From assembly GCA_015680905.1 (NCBI GenBank), contig CM027378.1, positions 5,685,001 through 5,749,000 on the forward strand: a stretch of 64,000 bases of DNA, read 5' to 3'. The notes below the pieces were generated by a model. The model was given only the letters and a program-made list of their open reading frames with translations. It was not told the DNA's origin and made no database searches. A program made the position numbers and the translations under genes. The stretch is from Coptis chinensis (lineage: Eukaryota; Streptophyta; Magnoliopsida; Ranunculales; Ranunculaceae). Of this stretch, positions 1 to 35,289 are shown in pieces. Positions within the stretch are counted from its first letter, which is position 1; every line of letters starts with the position of its first letter.

Positions 1-690
1 TGAAAGTTTGAGGGGAAAGGTTCCATGTGACGCGGACACTGATGCTTGGGTTAGTCGATCCTAAGAGGCGGGAAGCTTGGGCGAGAGCGTGCATCACGTG
101 AGCTTTGAAAGGGAATCGGGTTAAAATTTTTGAACTGGGACGCGGTGGTTGACAATAACATTGGGGGGAGTTTAGAGGCGCGCTTGGGCGCCGGGGAAGA
201 GTTATCTTGGATATTTAACAACTTTGCCCGCTGGAAATAGCTGGGCTTTGGAGGGAGGGTTTGATGGATAAGGGCGCGCCGACGCCTATGGTGCTTGGGG
301 GCAAAATGGAACAATGTAGTCAAGGGAAGTCGGAAAAATGGATCCGCTTGGGCGCTTTGGGGAAAATGGATTGGATCTTGGGCTTGGGCATGGGGGATCT
401 GAGTTCAACCGTCGGCGCGCGGAGGATGCTTCGAGGCGGCTTGGCGGTGGGATGCTCGGACGCATTGGGCGCGCTTTGAAGGCTTTGGGCGCTTTGGGCG
501 CTTTCCCTTGGATGTCGAACAATCGCTTCGAACTTGGACGCTTTATGGAAAGGGAATGGACGCTTAATTAAAATAAAGCATTATGATGGTCCCAGCAGAT
601 GCTAACGCAATGTGATTTCTGCCCAGTGCTCTAAATATCAAAGTGAAGAAATTCAACCAAGCGCGGGTAAATGGCGGGGGTAACTATGAA

Positions 691-730
<40 letters not shown>

Positions 731-1134
731 TGCGCATGGATGGATTAACGAGATTCCCACTGTCCCTGTCTACTATCCAGTAAAACCACAACCATTAGAA
801 CGGGCTTGGCAGAATCAGCGGGGAAAGAAGACCATGTTGAGCTTGACTCTAGTCTAACTTTGTGAAATAACTTAAGAGGTGTAAGATAAGTAGAGTCGCT
901 GCTGGCGCTTGGAAAGCTTGAAAATTACCACTACTTTGGGCGTTATTTTACTTATTCCGTGATGCTGGGCTTTGGGCGGAATGGGCCCTGACTTTGAACA
1001 AGTTTCGCTTTTGGCTTGGACCGATCCGGGCGAAAACATTGTCAAGTGGGAAGTTTTGGGGCGCACATGGGCGCTAAAAAAGATAACGCTTTGGTAACCT
1101 AAGATGAGCTCAACGAGAACAGAAATCTCGTGTG
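1..1134 (+). rRNA. 26S rRNA gene fragment, degenerate (pseudogene)
   Basis: The conserved core of plant 26S rRNA can be followed in order: GGTTCCATGTGA and GGGTTAGTCGATCCTAAGAG near the left edge, AATTAAAATAAAGCATT at about 567, TCTCTTAAGGTAGCCAAATG at about 690, ATTCCCACTGTCCCTGTCTA at about 753, GGGAAAGAAGACCATGTTGA at about 820, and AGAAATCTCGTGTG ending at 1134. The rRNA then stops abruptly, so about the last kilobase of a normal 26S gene is missing. Differences from the usual core are mostly C-to-T and G-to-A, as expected for a methylated, non-functional copy. The stretches between cores, where expansion segments belong (for example about 340-380, 400-545 and 885-1080), are shortened or filled with CTTGGGCGC/GGACGC motifs like those of the satellite that follows. 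The left end runs off the window. The identification is firm; loss of function is inferred. Confidence 0.88.
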
Positions 1135-4030
1135 TACCTTGTGAATGGGCATGGGTACCTTGGTTGCTTGGGCGCTTGGACGCTTTGGACGCTTTAGACA
1201 ATTGGACGAGTGCAATTGGACGGTTGAATGTGGACGCTTGTGCATGGGAGTGGACGCTTGGGCATTTGGGCTCTTGGGTGCTTTGGACCTTGGATGCTTG
1301 GGCGCTTGGACGCCTTGGATGCTTGGGCGCTTGACGCTTGGATGCTGAACATAGGCGCTTGTGCATGGGTGTAGGTATCTTAGGAGCTTGGACACATGGA
1401 CGCGGGCACTTGGTCGCTTGGACGGTTGGACGTGGATGCTTGTGCATGGGGGATGGGGCTGACGCTTGGGCTTTGAACATGGATGCTTGTGCATGGGCAT
1501 GGGTAACTTGATCGCTTAGGCTCTTGGGGGAGCTTGGGCTTTGGGCGGTTGATGCGTGGGCGCTTGTGCATGGACGCTTTGGTATCTTGAGCGCTTTTGA
1601 CGCTTGGGGGCTTTGATGCTTTGGGCTGCTGGCGCGCTTGGACGGTTGGACATGAATGCTTGTACATGGGCGTGCGTACCTTGGTCACTTGGTTGCTTGG
1701 ATGCTTGGTCGCTTGGGCGCTTGGACGCGGGCATATGGTCCCTAAGACGGTTGAATGTGGACATTTTTGCAAGGGCGTGGATATCTTGGGTGCTTGGGAG
1801 CTTGGATGCGGGCTTTTGGGCACTTGGACGGTTGGACATGGACGTTTGTACATGGGCGTGCGTACCTTGGTCACTTGGATGCTTGGTCGCTTGGGCGCTT
1901 GGACGCGGGCGTATGGTCCCTAAGACGGTTGAATGTGGACATTTTTGCAAGGGCGTGGATATCTTGGGTGCTTGGGAGCTTGGATCGCTGGGGCTTTGGG
2001 CGGGCGGTTGGGCTTGGACGCCTTGGGCGCTTGGATGCATGGGTATGGGTACCTTGGTCGCTTGGGCACTTGGGCGTTTAGACGCTTGGACGCTTGGGCG
2101 GTGGACGCGCTGGGCGCTTTGATTGCTTTGGGCTTGGGGTATCTTGGCGCTTGGATGCTTGGACGCTTGGGCTTTTGGCGCTTATGGCGCTTGGGCGCTT
2201 GGACGCTTGGGCGCTTGACGATGCTTTGACGCTTTGGATGGATGCATTTGATGATGATTTTTGGATGCTTGAACGGTTGGACGCTTTGGGCGCTTTGCAT
2301 GGACGCTTGGGTATCTTGGGCGATTAGGGGCGGCTTGATGCTTTGGGTGCTTGGACGCGGGAGTTTGGGATCTTGGGGGCTTGGACGCGGTTGGGCGTGG
2401 GGCGCTGATGTGCTTTGATGCTTACGCTACCTTGGTCGATTGGCTTGGACGCTTGGATGCTTTGCTTTGACGCGGGCGCTTGGACGCTTTGGATGCTTGA
2501 TGCTTTGATCGCTTTGGCTTTGGGCACTTGGATGCTTGGATGGTTGGACGTGGACGCTTGTGCATGGGCGTGGGTACCTTTGGTGGACGCTTTGGGTACT
2601 TGGGATTGACGCTTGGATTTCTTACGCTTGGGCGCTTGGGGATGCTGAAAGTGCTTGGGCTCTTGGGCGCTTGGACGGTTGAACATGGATGATTATGCTT
2701 GGGCGTTTGGGCATGTAGGCGCTTCGATGTGGGCGCTTGGACGCTTGGACTTGAAAGCTTGTTCATGGGTGTGGGTACCTTGGTCGTTTGTGCGCTTGGG
2801 CACTTTTACACTTGGGCGCTTGGACACTTGAACATGGACACTTGATGCTTGATGGGGGCGGTATCTTAGCGCTTAAATGCTTTGGCTTTGACGCTTGGCG
2901 CTTTAGACGCTTCGGCGTTTGGATGCTTGGGCGCTTGGACGCTTAGGCGTGGGCGCTTGTGCATGGGCATGGGCATGGGCATGGGCACCTTGGTTGATTG
3001 GGCGCTTGTACGCTGGCGTTCAAGCGCTTCGGCGCTTGGGGGATTGGACGGTTGGACGTGGATGCTTGTGCATGGGCGTGGGTACCTTGGTTGCTTAGGC
3101 GCTTGGACGCTTGGACGGGGGGCGCTTGGGCCCTTGGACGCGGGCGCTTGTGCGCTTGGATGGTTGAACGTGGATGCTTGTGCATGGGCGTGGGTATCTT
3201 GGGTGCTTGGACACATGCGCTTGGGCACTTGAAAAGTTGAACGTGGGCGCTTGTGCATGTATCTTGGGCGCTTGGATGCGGGTGCTTCGGCGCTTGAACG
3301 CTTGGGCGCTTGGATGTGGGCACTTGGACAGTTGAACGTGGATGCTTGTGCACGGGCGTGGGTATCTTCGGCGTTTGGGCGCTTAGGCACTTGGACGTGG
3401 ATGCTTATGCATGGGCGTGGGTACCTTGGTCGCTTGGTCGCTTGGGCGCAGGCACTTGGATGCTTGGACGATTGAACGCAGGTGCCTGAGCGCTTGGACG
3501 GTTGAACATGGACGCTTATGCGTGGGTGTGGGTATCTTGGGCGCTTAGGCGCTTGGACGGTTGAACGTGGACGCAGGTGCTTGGGCGTGGGTACTTTGCT
3601 CGCTTGGGCACTTGGACACTTGGGTGCTTGGATGCGGGCACTAGGGCGCTTGGGCCTTTGGACGGTTGAACGTGGACGTTTGTGCATGGGCGTGGGTATC
3701 TTGAGCGCTTGGGCGGTTAGACGCGGGTGCTTGGGCGCTTAGACGGTTGGACGTGGATGCTTGTGCATGGGCGTGGGTACCTTGGGCGCTTGGATGCTTG
3801 GACGGTTGAACGTGGACGCTTGTGCATGGGCGTGGGTATCTTGGGTGCTTGGGTGCATGGGCGCTTGGACGATTGGACGTGGGTGCTTGGGCGCTTGGGC
3901 TTTTGGACGGTTAGACAGTTGGATGTCGACACTTTTGCATGGGCGTGGGTACCTTGGTCGCTTGGCGCTTGGACGGTTGAACGTGTACGCTTGTGCATGG
4001 GCGTGGGTATCTTAGGCGCTTGGACGCTAT
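1135..4030. repeat. degenerate CTTGG(G/A)CGC satellite array attached to the rRNA fragment
   Basis: This is about 2.9 kb of GC-rich, strongly strand-biased repeat (G/T-rich on plus). The short unit is CTTGGGCGC, CTTGGACGC or CTTGGATGC, 8-10 bp long. A longer motif, close to CTTGTGCATGGGCGTGGGTA followed by CCTT or TCTT, recurs about 20 times at irregular spacing of roughly 55-200 bp, usually after a GACGGTTGAACGTGGACG-like stretch. The array starts at the exact point where the 26S core ends and stops near 4030, where AT-rich DNA begins. Long open frames on both strands follow from the near lack of stop triplets in the unit and are not genes. I do not recognise it as a known satellite. Confidence 0.85.
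1641..1985. repeat. 186-bp direct duplication inside the satellite
   Basis: The block beginning GACGGTTGGACATG at 1641 recurs at 1827. Both copies contain the unusual strings ATGGTCCCTAAGACGG and GGACATTTTTGCAAGGGCG, so this is a recent duplication rather than the general background of the array. Confidence 0.75.
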
Positions 4031-18584: not shown

Positions 18585-19070
18585 GAAAATGAAAAACAAG
18601 TAAATGAACACACTATTGTCATGGGGAGCGATTTTTGTTGTTCAGGATATTTATTTTAAACTGGATGACTATAAAACTTTATATATTAATAGATTCTTAA
18701 ATATTTGTAGTTCATAGTCTAAGCATAGAGGGGGGAGGCTGCTTTTTGGCTTATAAAAAAAAAGTAAATGACTACCGGTTTAAAATCAAAATTAATATCC
18801 CAAAGTATGCTGTGTGTGGTGTCTCAAGAACACCGAAAAATACAGAGGGTGCAGTACAGAATTACTCATTTTACATGTAATCTCTAAAAAGTAAAAACTA
18901 GCAACCATGTGCTGTGAATCGTTATCCTGGTGACTAAGACTACCCAGAAGAGGACACGGATCATGAGCCACTTGTCAATAGAATAGATTGTCACGTCAAC
19001 AAAAAACGTGTTCTGGTGGATGCAGCGAGCCGATGCCATCTTTTTTTTGTTGGTTTTTGCGGTTTAATTA
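18585..19070. repeat. segmental duplication, copy A (unfilled)
   Basis: This segment (from about AACAAGTAAATGAACACA at 18595 to GTTTAATTATC) reappears at 31088-34811, shared text including CCCAAAGTATRCT, TGTGGTGTCTCAAGAACACC, CATGTGCTGTGAATCGTTAT and GGATCATGAGCCACTTGTC. Copy A lacks all three transposons present in copy B, so it shows each empty site. At about 18932 it reads GACTAAGACTACCCAGAAG, where copy B holds the Pack-MULE. Confidence 0.85.
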
Positions 19071-19257
19071 TCCCTTGATGGGAGGGATTATGGAAGCTCG
19101 AGTGTGAGTGAGGTTGAATTGTAACAGTGGTTTTTGTCGCCGATTTTACAACGTTTGTCTCTATTTGGATGATAATGTGGATGACACGGTCATTGTCTGC
19201 ATGGGTCGCAGGAGCTAGACTCTAGGAGTCGATTGTGTTGAACAGCTGGAGCGGGAG

Positions 19258-30636: not shown

Positions 30637-31360
30637 CAAGCCACACGTAATTCTTGAGGGTGGCTTTTATAGGCATTAGGAGTGTGCATCGGATGCGACA
30701 CGTATACTGATGAGTATAGATGTGCGGTCGAGATGAATGACATGCTTCTATAAGAGGCACGTGGGTAGCAGTTGTAGGTGTTTAGGCTTATCTGAGTTGG
30801 CATAGGGTGTAATGATGGTGAGTTCTCTATAATGGTGGTGAGTAGCTGTAATGGTGCGTGTATTACGGCGGAAAAGAGACTTAGGGATAAAGTTAGTAAT
30901 GATGACAGTAGCAGGTGATGATGTCATGAGATAGATTTAAGTGACGAGTCGTTGAGTCTTCTAATATAGCGAGTGCATGCTTGGAGTCGTCTATGAGTGT
31001 GACGGGTATCCATATGTCTGGGGTCACGTTATACTAAAAGAGTTGTTGTATGTGAGTCTTGTGCACATCATCACGTGGCCCTTAGAATGAAGAACAAGTA
31101 AATGAACACATTGCTGTCATGGGGAGCAATTTTTGTTGCTTAGGATATTTATTTTATTTCTTTAAAGTTGTTAAAGTTAGATGACTGTAAAACTTTATAT
31201 ATTAGTAGATCCTTAAATATTGTAGCTCATAATCTAGCATCTAGGGGAGGTCGAACACCTCCGTTTTTTTTGTTTGGATCGAGCTTCAGCAAAATCCTTG
31301 ATTGACCTTTGTAAGTGTTAGTCCCATTGGGGGAGTCTCTCTATTTTTGTGGAGGTGACT

Positions 31361-32213
31361 AGGGGTGCCAATAGGTACCCGATTACCCGGAACCAAACCG
31401 AAACCGAAACCGAATGTTTCGATTCTGGGTCTTAAAAAGTTAGACGAATTTAAACAGATCATTAAGAACCAAACCGATAAAGAACCGAAACTGTAGAATT
31501 GAATAGTAAAAAACTCCTGGGTACCCAAATCAAAACCGGAATCGATTATGATGATTTCGATATATAAAATTTAGTATTATATTACATTTAAGATAATCAA
31601 ACTCATACATTATAATATAAAATATATTTTTTATGTGTAAATTAAAAGTCTATTAAATATATATAGCATAATAATAAATGTGTGTTGTTAAATATATATT
31701 TTATAACAATACGTTAAACAAGTGTATCATAGATGTTAATAATAATGTCAACGTGTATATTATAAATTAACTAATTTATTTTATATTTATTAACTTATGC
31801 ACGTATATATTTAAATATGATACACATGCTTAATATATTGTGTTACACTCACTTATTATAAATCAATATGTAGTGTTCATATTAAAAATTAGTGATGAAA
31901 TGTAATTGTAAGACGCATGTACTCGCATGTTCGATTTAAAATGCGAGTTTATACACGTGTACAAATATATGTGTATGCACGTAAAATAAAAATAAAAACA
32001 AGTTTTAGTGTTTAAATGATTAAAATTGTTTAATAATCAAACTAAATAATAAATACCCAAATTAGAATCGAAACTGATAAAAAACCGTGGGTTTTGGATT
32101 GGGTTCTATAATTCTCATACTAAAACTGTTGATAACCGAAACTGATAGAACTGCAAATAGTAAAATACAAACCAAAACCGCTAAAACCCGACCCAAAACC
32201 GACCCATTGGCAC
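31361..32213. mobile_element. hAT-like non-autonomous element, about 0.85 kb
   Basis: Ends GGGTGCCAATAGGTACCCG and GACCCATTGGCAC are inverted copies. Both sub-ends are rich in AACCGAAACCGAA-type text. Flanks GGTGACT (about 31354-31360) and GGTGACT (about 32215-32221) form the target duplication, edge uncertain by 1-2 bases. The interior is AT-rich with no ORF. Copy A of the duplication lacks it. Confidence 0.72.
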
Positions 32214-32243
32214 GGGTGACTCCCTTTTTTGCTTATTAAAAAA

Positions 32244-33025
32244 GGGTCTTATTACTGCCGAACCCCAATTTGTGTTGGGCGGACTCCCACAAAAAAAACA
32301 ATTATTACAAGTATGTCATTGGTTTTAAAAAATCTAAAAAAAAAACAATTATTACAAGTATGTCATTGGTCTCCAAAAAATTGAATTCGAAACCCCAAAC
32401 TTAAACGACCCGGCTAGATCGTTTGGACTAAGTCCCAAACGACTTAACGACTTGGCCACACCGTTTGGGACTTAGTCCAAACGACCCGGCCAGGTCATTT
32501 GGACTAAGTCCCAAACGACTTGGCCACACCGTTTGGGACTTATTCCAAACGACCCTGCCACACCGGTCAAGAGCCCAAAAAATAAAACTTTAAATTTTTT
32601 TTCAAAGTTCAAATCCCAAACGACATGGCCACATTGTTTTGAACTAAGTCCAAACAGTATGACCATACTGTTGGAGACTTAGTCCAAACGGTGTGGCAAT
32701 TTTTTTATAAGTCCAAATCCCAAATGGCATGGCCACATCGTTTTGGGAGCGTATCGTTTGTTTTGAATTCAAACTGAAAAAATTCAAAGTTATATGTTTT
32801 GGGCTCTTGACGGTGTGGCCAAGTCGTTTGGGACTTAGTCCAAACGACTGGCGGGTCATTTAAGTTTTGGGGTTTCAATTCAATTTTTGGGAATCAATGG
32901 CATCTTGTAATTTTTTTTTTTTTTTTAGATTTTTTGAAACCAATGACACACTTGTAATAATCGTTTTTTTTTTTTTTTTTTTTGAGTCAGCCCAACACAA
33001 ATTGGGTCCGGCAGTAACAAATACC
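32244..33025. mobile_element. inverted-repeat DNA transposon, 0.78 kb
   Basis: The ends share inverted text (TTACTGCCGGACCCAATTTG and relatives). The flanks carry TTAAAAAA at 32236-32243 and 33026-33033. The interior repeats the dyad GTTTGGGACTTAGTCCAAAC and GCCACACCGTTTGGGA in both orientations. No ORF. It is absent from duplication copy A. Confidence 0.72.
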
Positions 33026-33258
33026 TTAAAAAAACAGGTAAATGAACACTAACTATGTTGAGCTTCAGTGGTGTTTGACCAATAACTACAGGTTTAAAAT
33101 CAAAATTAATATCCCAAAGTATACTAGTGTGTGGACGTGTGGTGTCTCAAGAACACCGAAAAATACAAAGGGTGCAGTACAAAATTACTCATTTTACATG
33201 TAATCTCTAAAAACTAGCACCATGTGCTGTGAATCGTTATCCTGGTGACTAAGACTAC

Positions 33259-33397
33259 GAGTCCATTTTTGCTGCAATTTCGGTGAGGCTTAGTTTGCTT
33301 CCAGCCCAATGGAAACATAACACGTGTCCATCTAACTAAACAAAAAATACTTTAAAAATTGGAACCGTTCCTAGTTGTTTTTCTTCCTATTATGCCC
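33259..33397 (+). repeat. left TIR of the Pack-MULE
   Basis: Inverted copy of 34535-34673; includes an ACACGTGT palindrome at about 33330. Confidence 0.93.
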
Positions 33398-33850
33398 TTG
33401 ATCTCTCCTATAGAGTTCACGTAGAAACTTCGGTTTTTCTGGAAGATTCATAAATTACATATAATGGCTCCATCCTCTTCATTGGTGGTCATTGTCACCG
33501 TAACAACGCACTGTAAAGTAACAGACTACATATTGGAATTTATTATCTTTTTCAATACAGAGGAAGGAAAGTAACAATTTTATTTGTGATTTTTCATTTT
33601 GCAGAAAGAAATAAAAATGGATGTGAGAAAAAAAAAAAAACTGATTTGGAGAGAATGGAATAAATCTTGGAATTGATTAGATTTTTATTAACTATAGTTA
33701 ATCAATAATTGAAGAGTACTCATAGGTGGAGATGTGATAGAGAGAGTACTCTGATGGAGATGTGCTGGAGACTTTTCGCTCATCGTCGTCGAGTGAAATT
33801 TTTCTCGTAAAAGGGGCTCACAATGCTGTAAGAGGACTTGACATTCAAAC

Positions 33851-34459
33851 ATGTTTCCTAGGTTCGTTTGGTTGTTTTTCTTAGCCGGTAGCGTTGCAAC
33901 TGCCTTAGAAGAACATGGTTTTATTTACAACGGCTTCAAAAATGCTAATTTGAGCCTTGACGGCCAAGCGGGGATCACAGGGAGCGGCCTCTTGAGGCTA
34001 ACCAACATCACCCAACTGACAATGACAAGTCATGCCTTCCATCCGAAACCATTTCAGTTCAAGAACCTGTCATCAAATGGTAGCACTCTTTCCTTCTCTA
34101 CTACTTTTGTGTTTGCAATTGTCCCCAAATATAGTGATTTAAGTGGTCCCGGTATTTGCTTTGTTATTGCACCATCAAGAAGCCTACCAGGAGCTCTACC
34201 AACCCAATATCTCGGCCTTTTCAATTACACCAGTAATGGGGATCCATCCAATCATGTTGTTGCTGTGGAGCTTGATACTATCGTTAACAAAGAGTTTGGT
34301 GACATAAATGATAACCATGTTGGTATTGATCTAAATAACTTAAGGTCAGCCATATCTGCTCCTGCAAAGTACTATCTCGATCGTACTGGTGGCAATTACA
34401 AGAATCTAAGCCTAATTAGTGGACAACAGATGCAAGTCTGGATTGAGTATGCCCTTTAA
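33851..34459 (+). CDS. truncated L-type lectin (LecRK-like) ORF inside the Pack-MULE
   Basis: An uninterrupted 202-codon frame with a hydrophobic signal peptide (about residues 1-19, ending TALEEH) is followed by a legume-lectin domain like that of plant L-type lectin receptor kinases. Diagnostic strings are FIYNGFKNANLSLDG, GLLRLTN, STTFVFAIVP, GICFVIAPSRSLPGALPTQY, VAVELDTI, DINDNHVGIDLN and QMQVWIEY. The family metal/sugar site residues D (in VELDTI) and N (in NDNHVGID) are present. A normal LecRK continues with about 60 more lectin residues, a membrane helix and a kinase. Here a small deletion after IEY shifts the frame to a stop, and a short homologous remnant (PIDAPKERGG) follows in another frame. 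The predicted product would be a short, secreted lectin fragment. Upstream 33398-33850 may be captured 5' sequence. Confidence 0.75.
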   Translation: MFPRFVWLFFLAGSVATALEEHGFIYNGFKNANLSLDGQAGITGSGLLRLTNITQLTMTSHAFHPKPFQFKNLSSNGSTLSFSTTFVFAIVPKYSDLSGPGICFVIAPSRSLPGALPTQYLGLFNYTSNGDPSNHVVAVELDTIVNKEFGDINDNHVGIDLNNLRSAISAPAKYYLDRTGGNYKNLSLISGQQMQVWIEYAL

Positions 34460-34534
34460 TTCCACCCATTGATGCGCCCAAAGAAAGAGGTGGGTCTATG
34501 GACTATTGAATTGCAGAGGCAAAAGGGAAGGAGA

Positions 34535-34673
34535 GGGCATAATAGGAAGAAAAACAACTAGGAACGGTTCCAATTTTTAAAGTATTTTTTGTTTAGTTAG
34601 ATGGACACGTGTTATGTTTCCATTGGGCTGGAAGCAAACTAAGCCTCACCGAAATTGCAGCAAAAATGGACTC
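34535..34673 (-). repeat. right TIR of the Pack-MULE
   Basis: Exact reverse complement of the left TIR by eye over 139 bp. Confidence 0.93.
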
Positions 34674-35289
34674 CTAAGACTACCAAGAAGAGGACACGGA
34701 TCATGAGCCACTTGTCGATAGAATAGGCTGTCACGTCAACGTTAAACGTGTTCTGGTGGATGCAGCGAGCCGATGCCGTCTTTTTTGTTGGTTTTTGCGC
34801 TTTAATTATCAATCCAAATTCTTTACGGACACATCCTTACCTGGTCGCCACGTCATAATTATGACGACATCCATGTGGTATTCGTGCCGCCGCACCTCAA
34901 TAGTAGAGCAAACTTCTTCAAAGTTGTAATCAACCGTAACATATTTTACCTATGAATTCAAGCAAAAATAAAAAATAAAAACTTTGCCTATGAAAAGAAA
35001 ACAAGCAAAAAAACTAAATGGACTTGCAAAATTACTACACTGACACTTAGATACTCAGGATGTATGCATTTCTATTTATCATTTTTATTTTATTTTTCTC
35101 GATTTATCTATCTAACAAAACAGAAAGGAGTGGGAGGACAGATTCCACGTGATAAGGTGAGACGTGCTCGACACACTCCCTAACCATAGCCACTCAAAAC
35201 TCATGGAGGGTGAATTAAAAAGCTTTTATGGGGTGGGTTAAACAGTTTTTCTCACCTCACCCACCCCCACACAAAATAATCAACATTGG

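Follow-up and report, generated by a model that had tools for sequence, protein, structure and literature searches.

The window analysed here is a stretch of 64,000 nucleotides from Coptis chinensis (contig CM027378.1, positions 5,685,001 to 5,749,000), and it carries at 33259-34673 a 1,415-bp element, target duplications (TSDs) excluded. We consider it very probable that this is a non-autonomous Mutator-like (MULE) chimera, which was built from two donors and moved in trans to at least four sites, and that its 202-codon open frame (ORF) is most likely a neutral passenger. The element is of a known type; as a case it is new and well resolved, with a structure followed almost to the base. In this single genome one can follow how a gene-carrying transposon captured and fused sequence from two donors, multiplied and began to decay, and the case illustrates how an ORF that seems designed for secretion may come about accidentally.

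Structure of the element and its insertion site

With both TSDs, from the start of the left to the end of the right one, the span is 33249-34683. This is exactly the interval given in an earlier note on the same DNA. The repeat CTAAGACTAC stands on both sides (33249-33258 and 34674-34683) as a perfect 10-bp duplication, as that note had described. The left TIR (33259-33398, plus strand) and the right TIR (34534-34673, minus strand) are 100% identical. The note was right about the identity of the TIRs and one base short in their length, which it gave as 139 bp; we measured 140 bp. Between them lie a 1,051-bp piece of an L-type lectin receptor kinase (LecRK) gene at 33401-34451 and a 48-bp piece of a UDP-glycosyltransferase gene at 34451-34498, both on the plus strand. 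Base 34451 is compatible with both donors. Beyond 34498 the sequence is common to other elements of the TIR family. Two of them (C5:69134353-69134533 and C3:20512018-20512193) match this subterminal MULE sequence (34499-34533) from element position 1241 on. TIRs, subterminal sequence and the two captures leave over only 2 bp of the element (33399-33400), and its interior is free of transposase.

Pack-MULEs are defined by a TSD of 9-11 bp, and a perfect 10-bp TSD was found in all four full copies of the element. The TIRs, at 140 bp and 100% identity, are longer than the approximately 100 bp expected of a Pack-MULE. Host-gene donors were located in a LecRK array on C6 and in a glycosyltransferase gene on C9. 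Judged by its sequence, the element is a Pack-MULE, as had been proposed, and a chimeric one, with a superfamily assignment that rests on TSD length and TIR form.

The joined flanks of the element match an uninterrupted segment at 18767-19072 (plus strand) in the same window, with 89.5% identity over 315 aligned columns. At 18904-18973 the target reads through with one CTAAGACTAC only (18934-18943), and 69 of the 70 bases are the same as in the element flanks. The in-window empty site of the earlier note is therefore real. In a search of the genome the target segment was found at just two places (three matches, two of which are the halves of the occupied site), and 18767-19072 is a paralogous segment, not an allele. 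For this reason the empty site proves the insertion and has no dating value, and we rejected it as a date.

Three further features of the window were noted. The intervals 18588-19072 and 31086-34810 form a short local duplication, the second copy of which seems to have been interrupted by the Pack-MULE and by some 1.8 kb of other sequence. Directly left of the Pack-MULE lies an inverted repeat whose arms are about 200 bp long and match at 84% (32249-32445 and 32821-33017), perhaps another TIR element or a foldback. Positions 1-4030 hold part of a eukaryotic LSU rRNA (Rfam RF02543, 386.7 bits) and, after it, degenerate tandem repeats of the CTTGGGCGC type, and look like a 28S end with spacer repeats within a chromosome-scale contig.

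Two donors and the open frame

The LecRK capture, at element positions 143-1193 (window 33401-34451), has its matches in L-type LecRK genes that form a tandem array at C6 91.37-91.57 Mb. Seven array paralogs were matched, with a top identity of 94%. P2 (94%) and P4 (92%) match the capture over its full length, P5 (93%) and P3 (91%) over most of it. The captured piece consists of 450 bp upstream (33401-33850, plus strand; nearest paralog P2, in L052) and the first 200 codons. With this array the parent family of the frame was located, which agrees with the earlier reading of a LecRK-derived frame. The similarity to C6 ends at 34451 in all seven paralogs. It starts 2 bp inside the left TIR for P2 and P4, which reach furthest upstream, and at element positions 203-566 for the others. 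Among the matches listed, none was a TIR at the C6 array.

P2 has a frame of 672 codons between stops, in which both the lectin and the kinase domain are complete. Two of the seven paralogs (P1 and P2) were seen to have frames of about 670 codons; in the rest the frame is shorter or broken up, and that of P2b also runs into the end of the stretch examined. When the nearest paralog was determined in 75-bp steps, it was P2 over most of the upstream portion, P4 at 601-825, P2 at 826-900 and P5 at 1051-1125, with differences of a few bases. Because the nearest paralog changes along the capture and none is nearest throughout, the exact donor gene is not fixed. The true donor is, we infer, an array gene that was not sampled or that has since undergone conversion. 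As an observation on the array itself (L051-L056), dN/dS over the first 200 codons exceeds 1 in 4 of the 21 pairs of paralogs.

From 34451 the match switches to C9 (29653383-29653430), with 95.8% identity over 48 bp and a genome-wide E of 5.1e-13 for 47 bp. A second, weaker match (91%) lies on C9 2.4 kb further on. The C9 frame holding the match scores against Pfam UDPGT (E = 2.2e-20). This donor frame reads GPLVPPIDAPKERGG at the match; the element uses another frame, and the fragment is out of frame relative to the LecRK part.

The uninterrupted 202-codon lectin-type ORF that the note had reported is indeed open at 33851-34459 (plus strand). It starts at the ATG of the donor and follows the donor for 200 codons, and its final two residues and stop come from the glycosyltransferase scrap. 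The product matches Pfam Lectin_legB with E = 4.7e-54 over profile positions 3-172 of 250 only, about two thirds of the profile. In five scanned array members the profile match reaches position 249. The ORF thus lacks the last third of the legume-lectin domain, which a functional L-type lectin would have complete. A hydrophobic N-terminus is visible by eye in the product. In the best-matching solved lectin, the Asp of ditsDglaf, which we take to be sugar-binding, is aligned with a Pro in the ORF (dlsgPgicf). The ORF protein gave no match in the plasmid collection. The ORF is a truncated ectodomain closed by an out-of-frame fusion.

Sister copies, age and selection

The genome to which the window belongs (116 contigs with 935,630,033 bases) was searched for related Pack-MULEs. 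Three sister copies were found, which gives four full-length copies: A (the window copy, C2 5.7 Mb), B (C2 22.9 Mb), C (C3 24.6 Mb) and D (C3 105.1 Mb). They are 99-100% identical and each has its own perfect 10-bp TSD, all four different. The element has therefore moved repeatedly and recently, and the three further TSDs exclude chance. Substitution divergence over the six pairs of copies is 0.14-0.43%, in line with the recent movement claimed before. At an assumed rate of 7e-9 substitutions per site per year, this divergence would correspond to an estimated 0.1-0.3 million years. Both TIRs are exactly the 140-bp sequence in A, B and C; D deviates at three TIR positions, 8 and 84 in the left repeat and 1313 in the right one. 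At C8:9896195-9896729 (L057:1196-1730) lies a fifth copy, which is heavily rearranged. It has the same fusion junction, and unrelated sequence separates its exact blocks, as might result from abortive gap repair or a fault in the assembly.

Ten further loci with TIR matches, namely the C8 copy and nine with TIRs 71-89% identical, were surveyed for TSDs of 8-11 bp with a shift of up to 3 bases. Perfect repeats of 10-11 bp were found at four of the ten (L058, L060, L061 and L065), a perfect 8-bp repeat at L059 and one with a mismatch at L066; none was found by this survey at L057, L062, L063 and L064. These loci show that the TIR family is wider than this Pack-MULE. At L058:840-3769 (C5:86393339-86396268) we observed an element of 2.93 kb whose TIRs are related and whose 10-bp TSD is perfect. 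This is the one longer TIR pair, and it holds no stop-to-stop frame above 96 codons. MULE transposase domains are abundant in the genome (150 of 4,347 candidates were scored). When these 150 places were compared by eye with 42 TIR matches (40 of 103 candidates scored), none were close together, and no autonomous partner was found among them.

As assembled, the ORF keeps its 202 codons in A and B, and stops after 47 residues in C and after 139 in D through deletions, which are read from the assembly only and may be assembly errors. The products of A and B are one residue apart (M58 in A, V58 in B). Window position 34022 distinguishes A from B, C and D. Mutation events were counted by hand across the copies. 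Five fall in the ORF and 7-9 outside; from its length the ORF would be expected to hold 5.2-6.0 (binomial P 0.79-1.0), so there is no depletion within it. Inside the ORF the copies are told apart by only two substitutions; selection tests thus have almost no power, and dN/dS among the copies is uninformative.

Against the paralogs, dN/dS of the element is 0.59-0.98 for P2-P5 and 0.36-0.72 for P1, P2b and P6. The range among P2-P5 themselves is 0.64-1.84 and overlaps that of the element; the value of 0.59, against P4, is slightly under the lowest of these. The proposed check of dN/dS against the parent is compatible with neutral decay, at low power. Relative to P2-P5 the element has seven private coding changes (five nonsynonymous, two synonymous) and none in 368 upstream columns. 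Two of these changes, N53I and K55Q, adjoin an indel with poor paralog alignment and are probably artefacts, and the P5 change list was left unused because it counts multiply-hit codons. The private changes, tiny as their numbers are, would seem to carry no sign of frame constraint. In a simple simulation the ORF stayed open in 91-97% of trials after 1-3 random substitutions, and in about 20% after one indel. Given the youth of the copies, open frames in two of them need no selection. The whole pattern, from the few changes available, is what neutral decay would look like.

Origin of the frame and comparison with known systems

To account for the observed structure, donor families, four insertions, low divergence and breakage of the frame in two of four copies as assembled, we propose the following mechanism. 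A non-autonomous Mutator-like element would have copied 450 bp of upstream sequence and 200 codons from one member of the C6 LecRK array, and 48 bp of the C9 glycosyltransferase gene, between its 140-bp repeats. Capture was presumably by copying during gap repair and probably involved template switches to the two donors; template-switch models of capture are described for Pack-TIRs in the available part of PMC8277862. Transposase supplied in trans would then have carried the completed chimera to four or more sites, with a fresh 10-bp TSD at each. The 202-codon frame would consist of the intact first part of the donor gene and would end where the fused fragment happens to supply a stop. It would be open only because the copies are young, and most likely it is a neutral passenger with no function as a protein. 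In rice, by the portion of PMC4858842 consulted, about 20-40% of MULE-derived putative genes are expressed, and for about 4% Ka/Ks is significantly lower than 1. Together with the data here, this base rate makes a neutral passenger the likeliest reading.

Transcribed copies could also be processed to small RNAs that silence the parental LecRK array, upstream region included, and we regard this as unlikely. The window copy and the P2/P2b stretch have 593 of 1,392 exact 24-mers in common (278 of 427 upstream, 300 of 578 coding), although such sharing is automatic after any recent capture. For rice, the same portion of PMC4858842 reports small RNAs on both the interiors and the TIRs of MULEs. On the other side, five of the seven detected paralogs have frames below about 670 codons, so there may be little left for small RNAs to regulate. 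That the dispersed copies act in trans on the array through promoter- and transcript-matching small RNAs, a young transposon thereby tuning an immune-receptor cluster, would be quite improbable. The element nevertheless offers a specific target for small-RNA and expression work on the LecRK array.

The earlier note had further suggested that the ORF product could act as a secreted decoy or new effector. Here the 202-aa protein would be made and secreted, and would compete with LecRK ligands or partners. The parental start codon, hydrophobic N-terminal stretch and upstream region were captured together, and the frame is open in two of the four copies. However, the lectin domain is without its last third, the stop comes from an out-of-frame fusion, the frame is broken in the other two copies as assembled, mutations are not depleted in the ORF and the dN/dS ranges overlap. 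We did not retain the suggestion and consider it very unlikely. A segmental or retro-copy of a LecRK, flanked by a palindrome by chance and with no transposon, would explain merely the presence of host gene sequence and was rejected as hardly credible, since four copies have different perfect TSDs, the empty site is clean, the capture takes in 450 bp 5′ of the start codon and its 3′ end shows no poly(A) tail.

Comparable systems are known from other genomes. Rice Pack-MULEs were reportedly described by Jiang et al. in 2004. The consulted portion of PMC4858842 covers cases that resemble the present element in their TIRs and long TSD, captured pieces of host genes and multiple copies, and it gives the share of MULE-derived putative genes in rice with at least two parents as 5-10%. 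The genome is another one here, and the captures consist of a LecRK upstream region, start and ectodomain with a glycosyltransferase scrap. Rice captures are GC-rich, whereas GC here is 0.42 in the LecRK coding piece, 0.34 in the upstream piece and 0.36 in window 6001-60000. A GC preference in the captures here is weak at most.

Animal Pack-TIRs, in the available part of PMC8277862, are alike in copy capture between TIRs, template-switch models, multicopy families and distinct TSDs. They are mostly hAT and TcMariner, and that study, as far as this part goes, identified no Pack-MULEs in its animal reference genomes. Lectin sequences in DNA transposons are on record in the part of PMC2846932 consulted: one rice Gal_Lectin gene to which an element of MULE-like type contributed exons, and a Lectin_legB gene of soybean that lies within a Helitron. 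Neither is described in that part as a multicopy Lectin_legB Pack-MULE. Compared with the L-type lectin receptor kinases themselves, the element is without a complete lectin domain, transmembrane part or kinase part, and has in common with them the upstream region and the first 200 codons.
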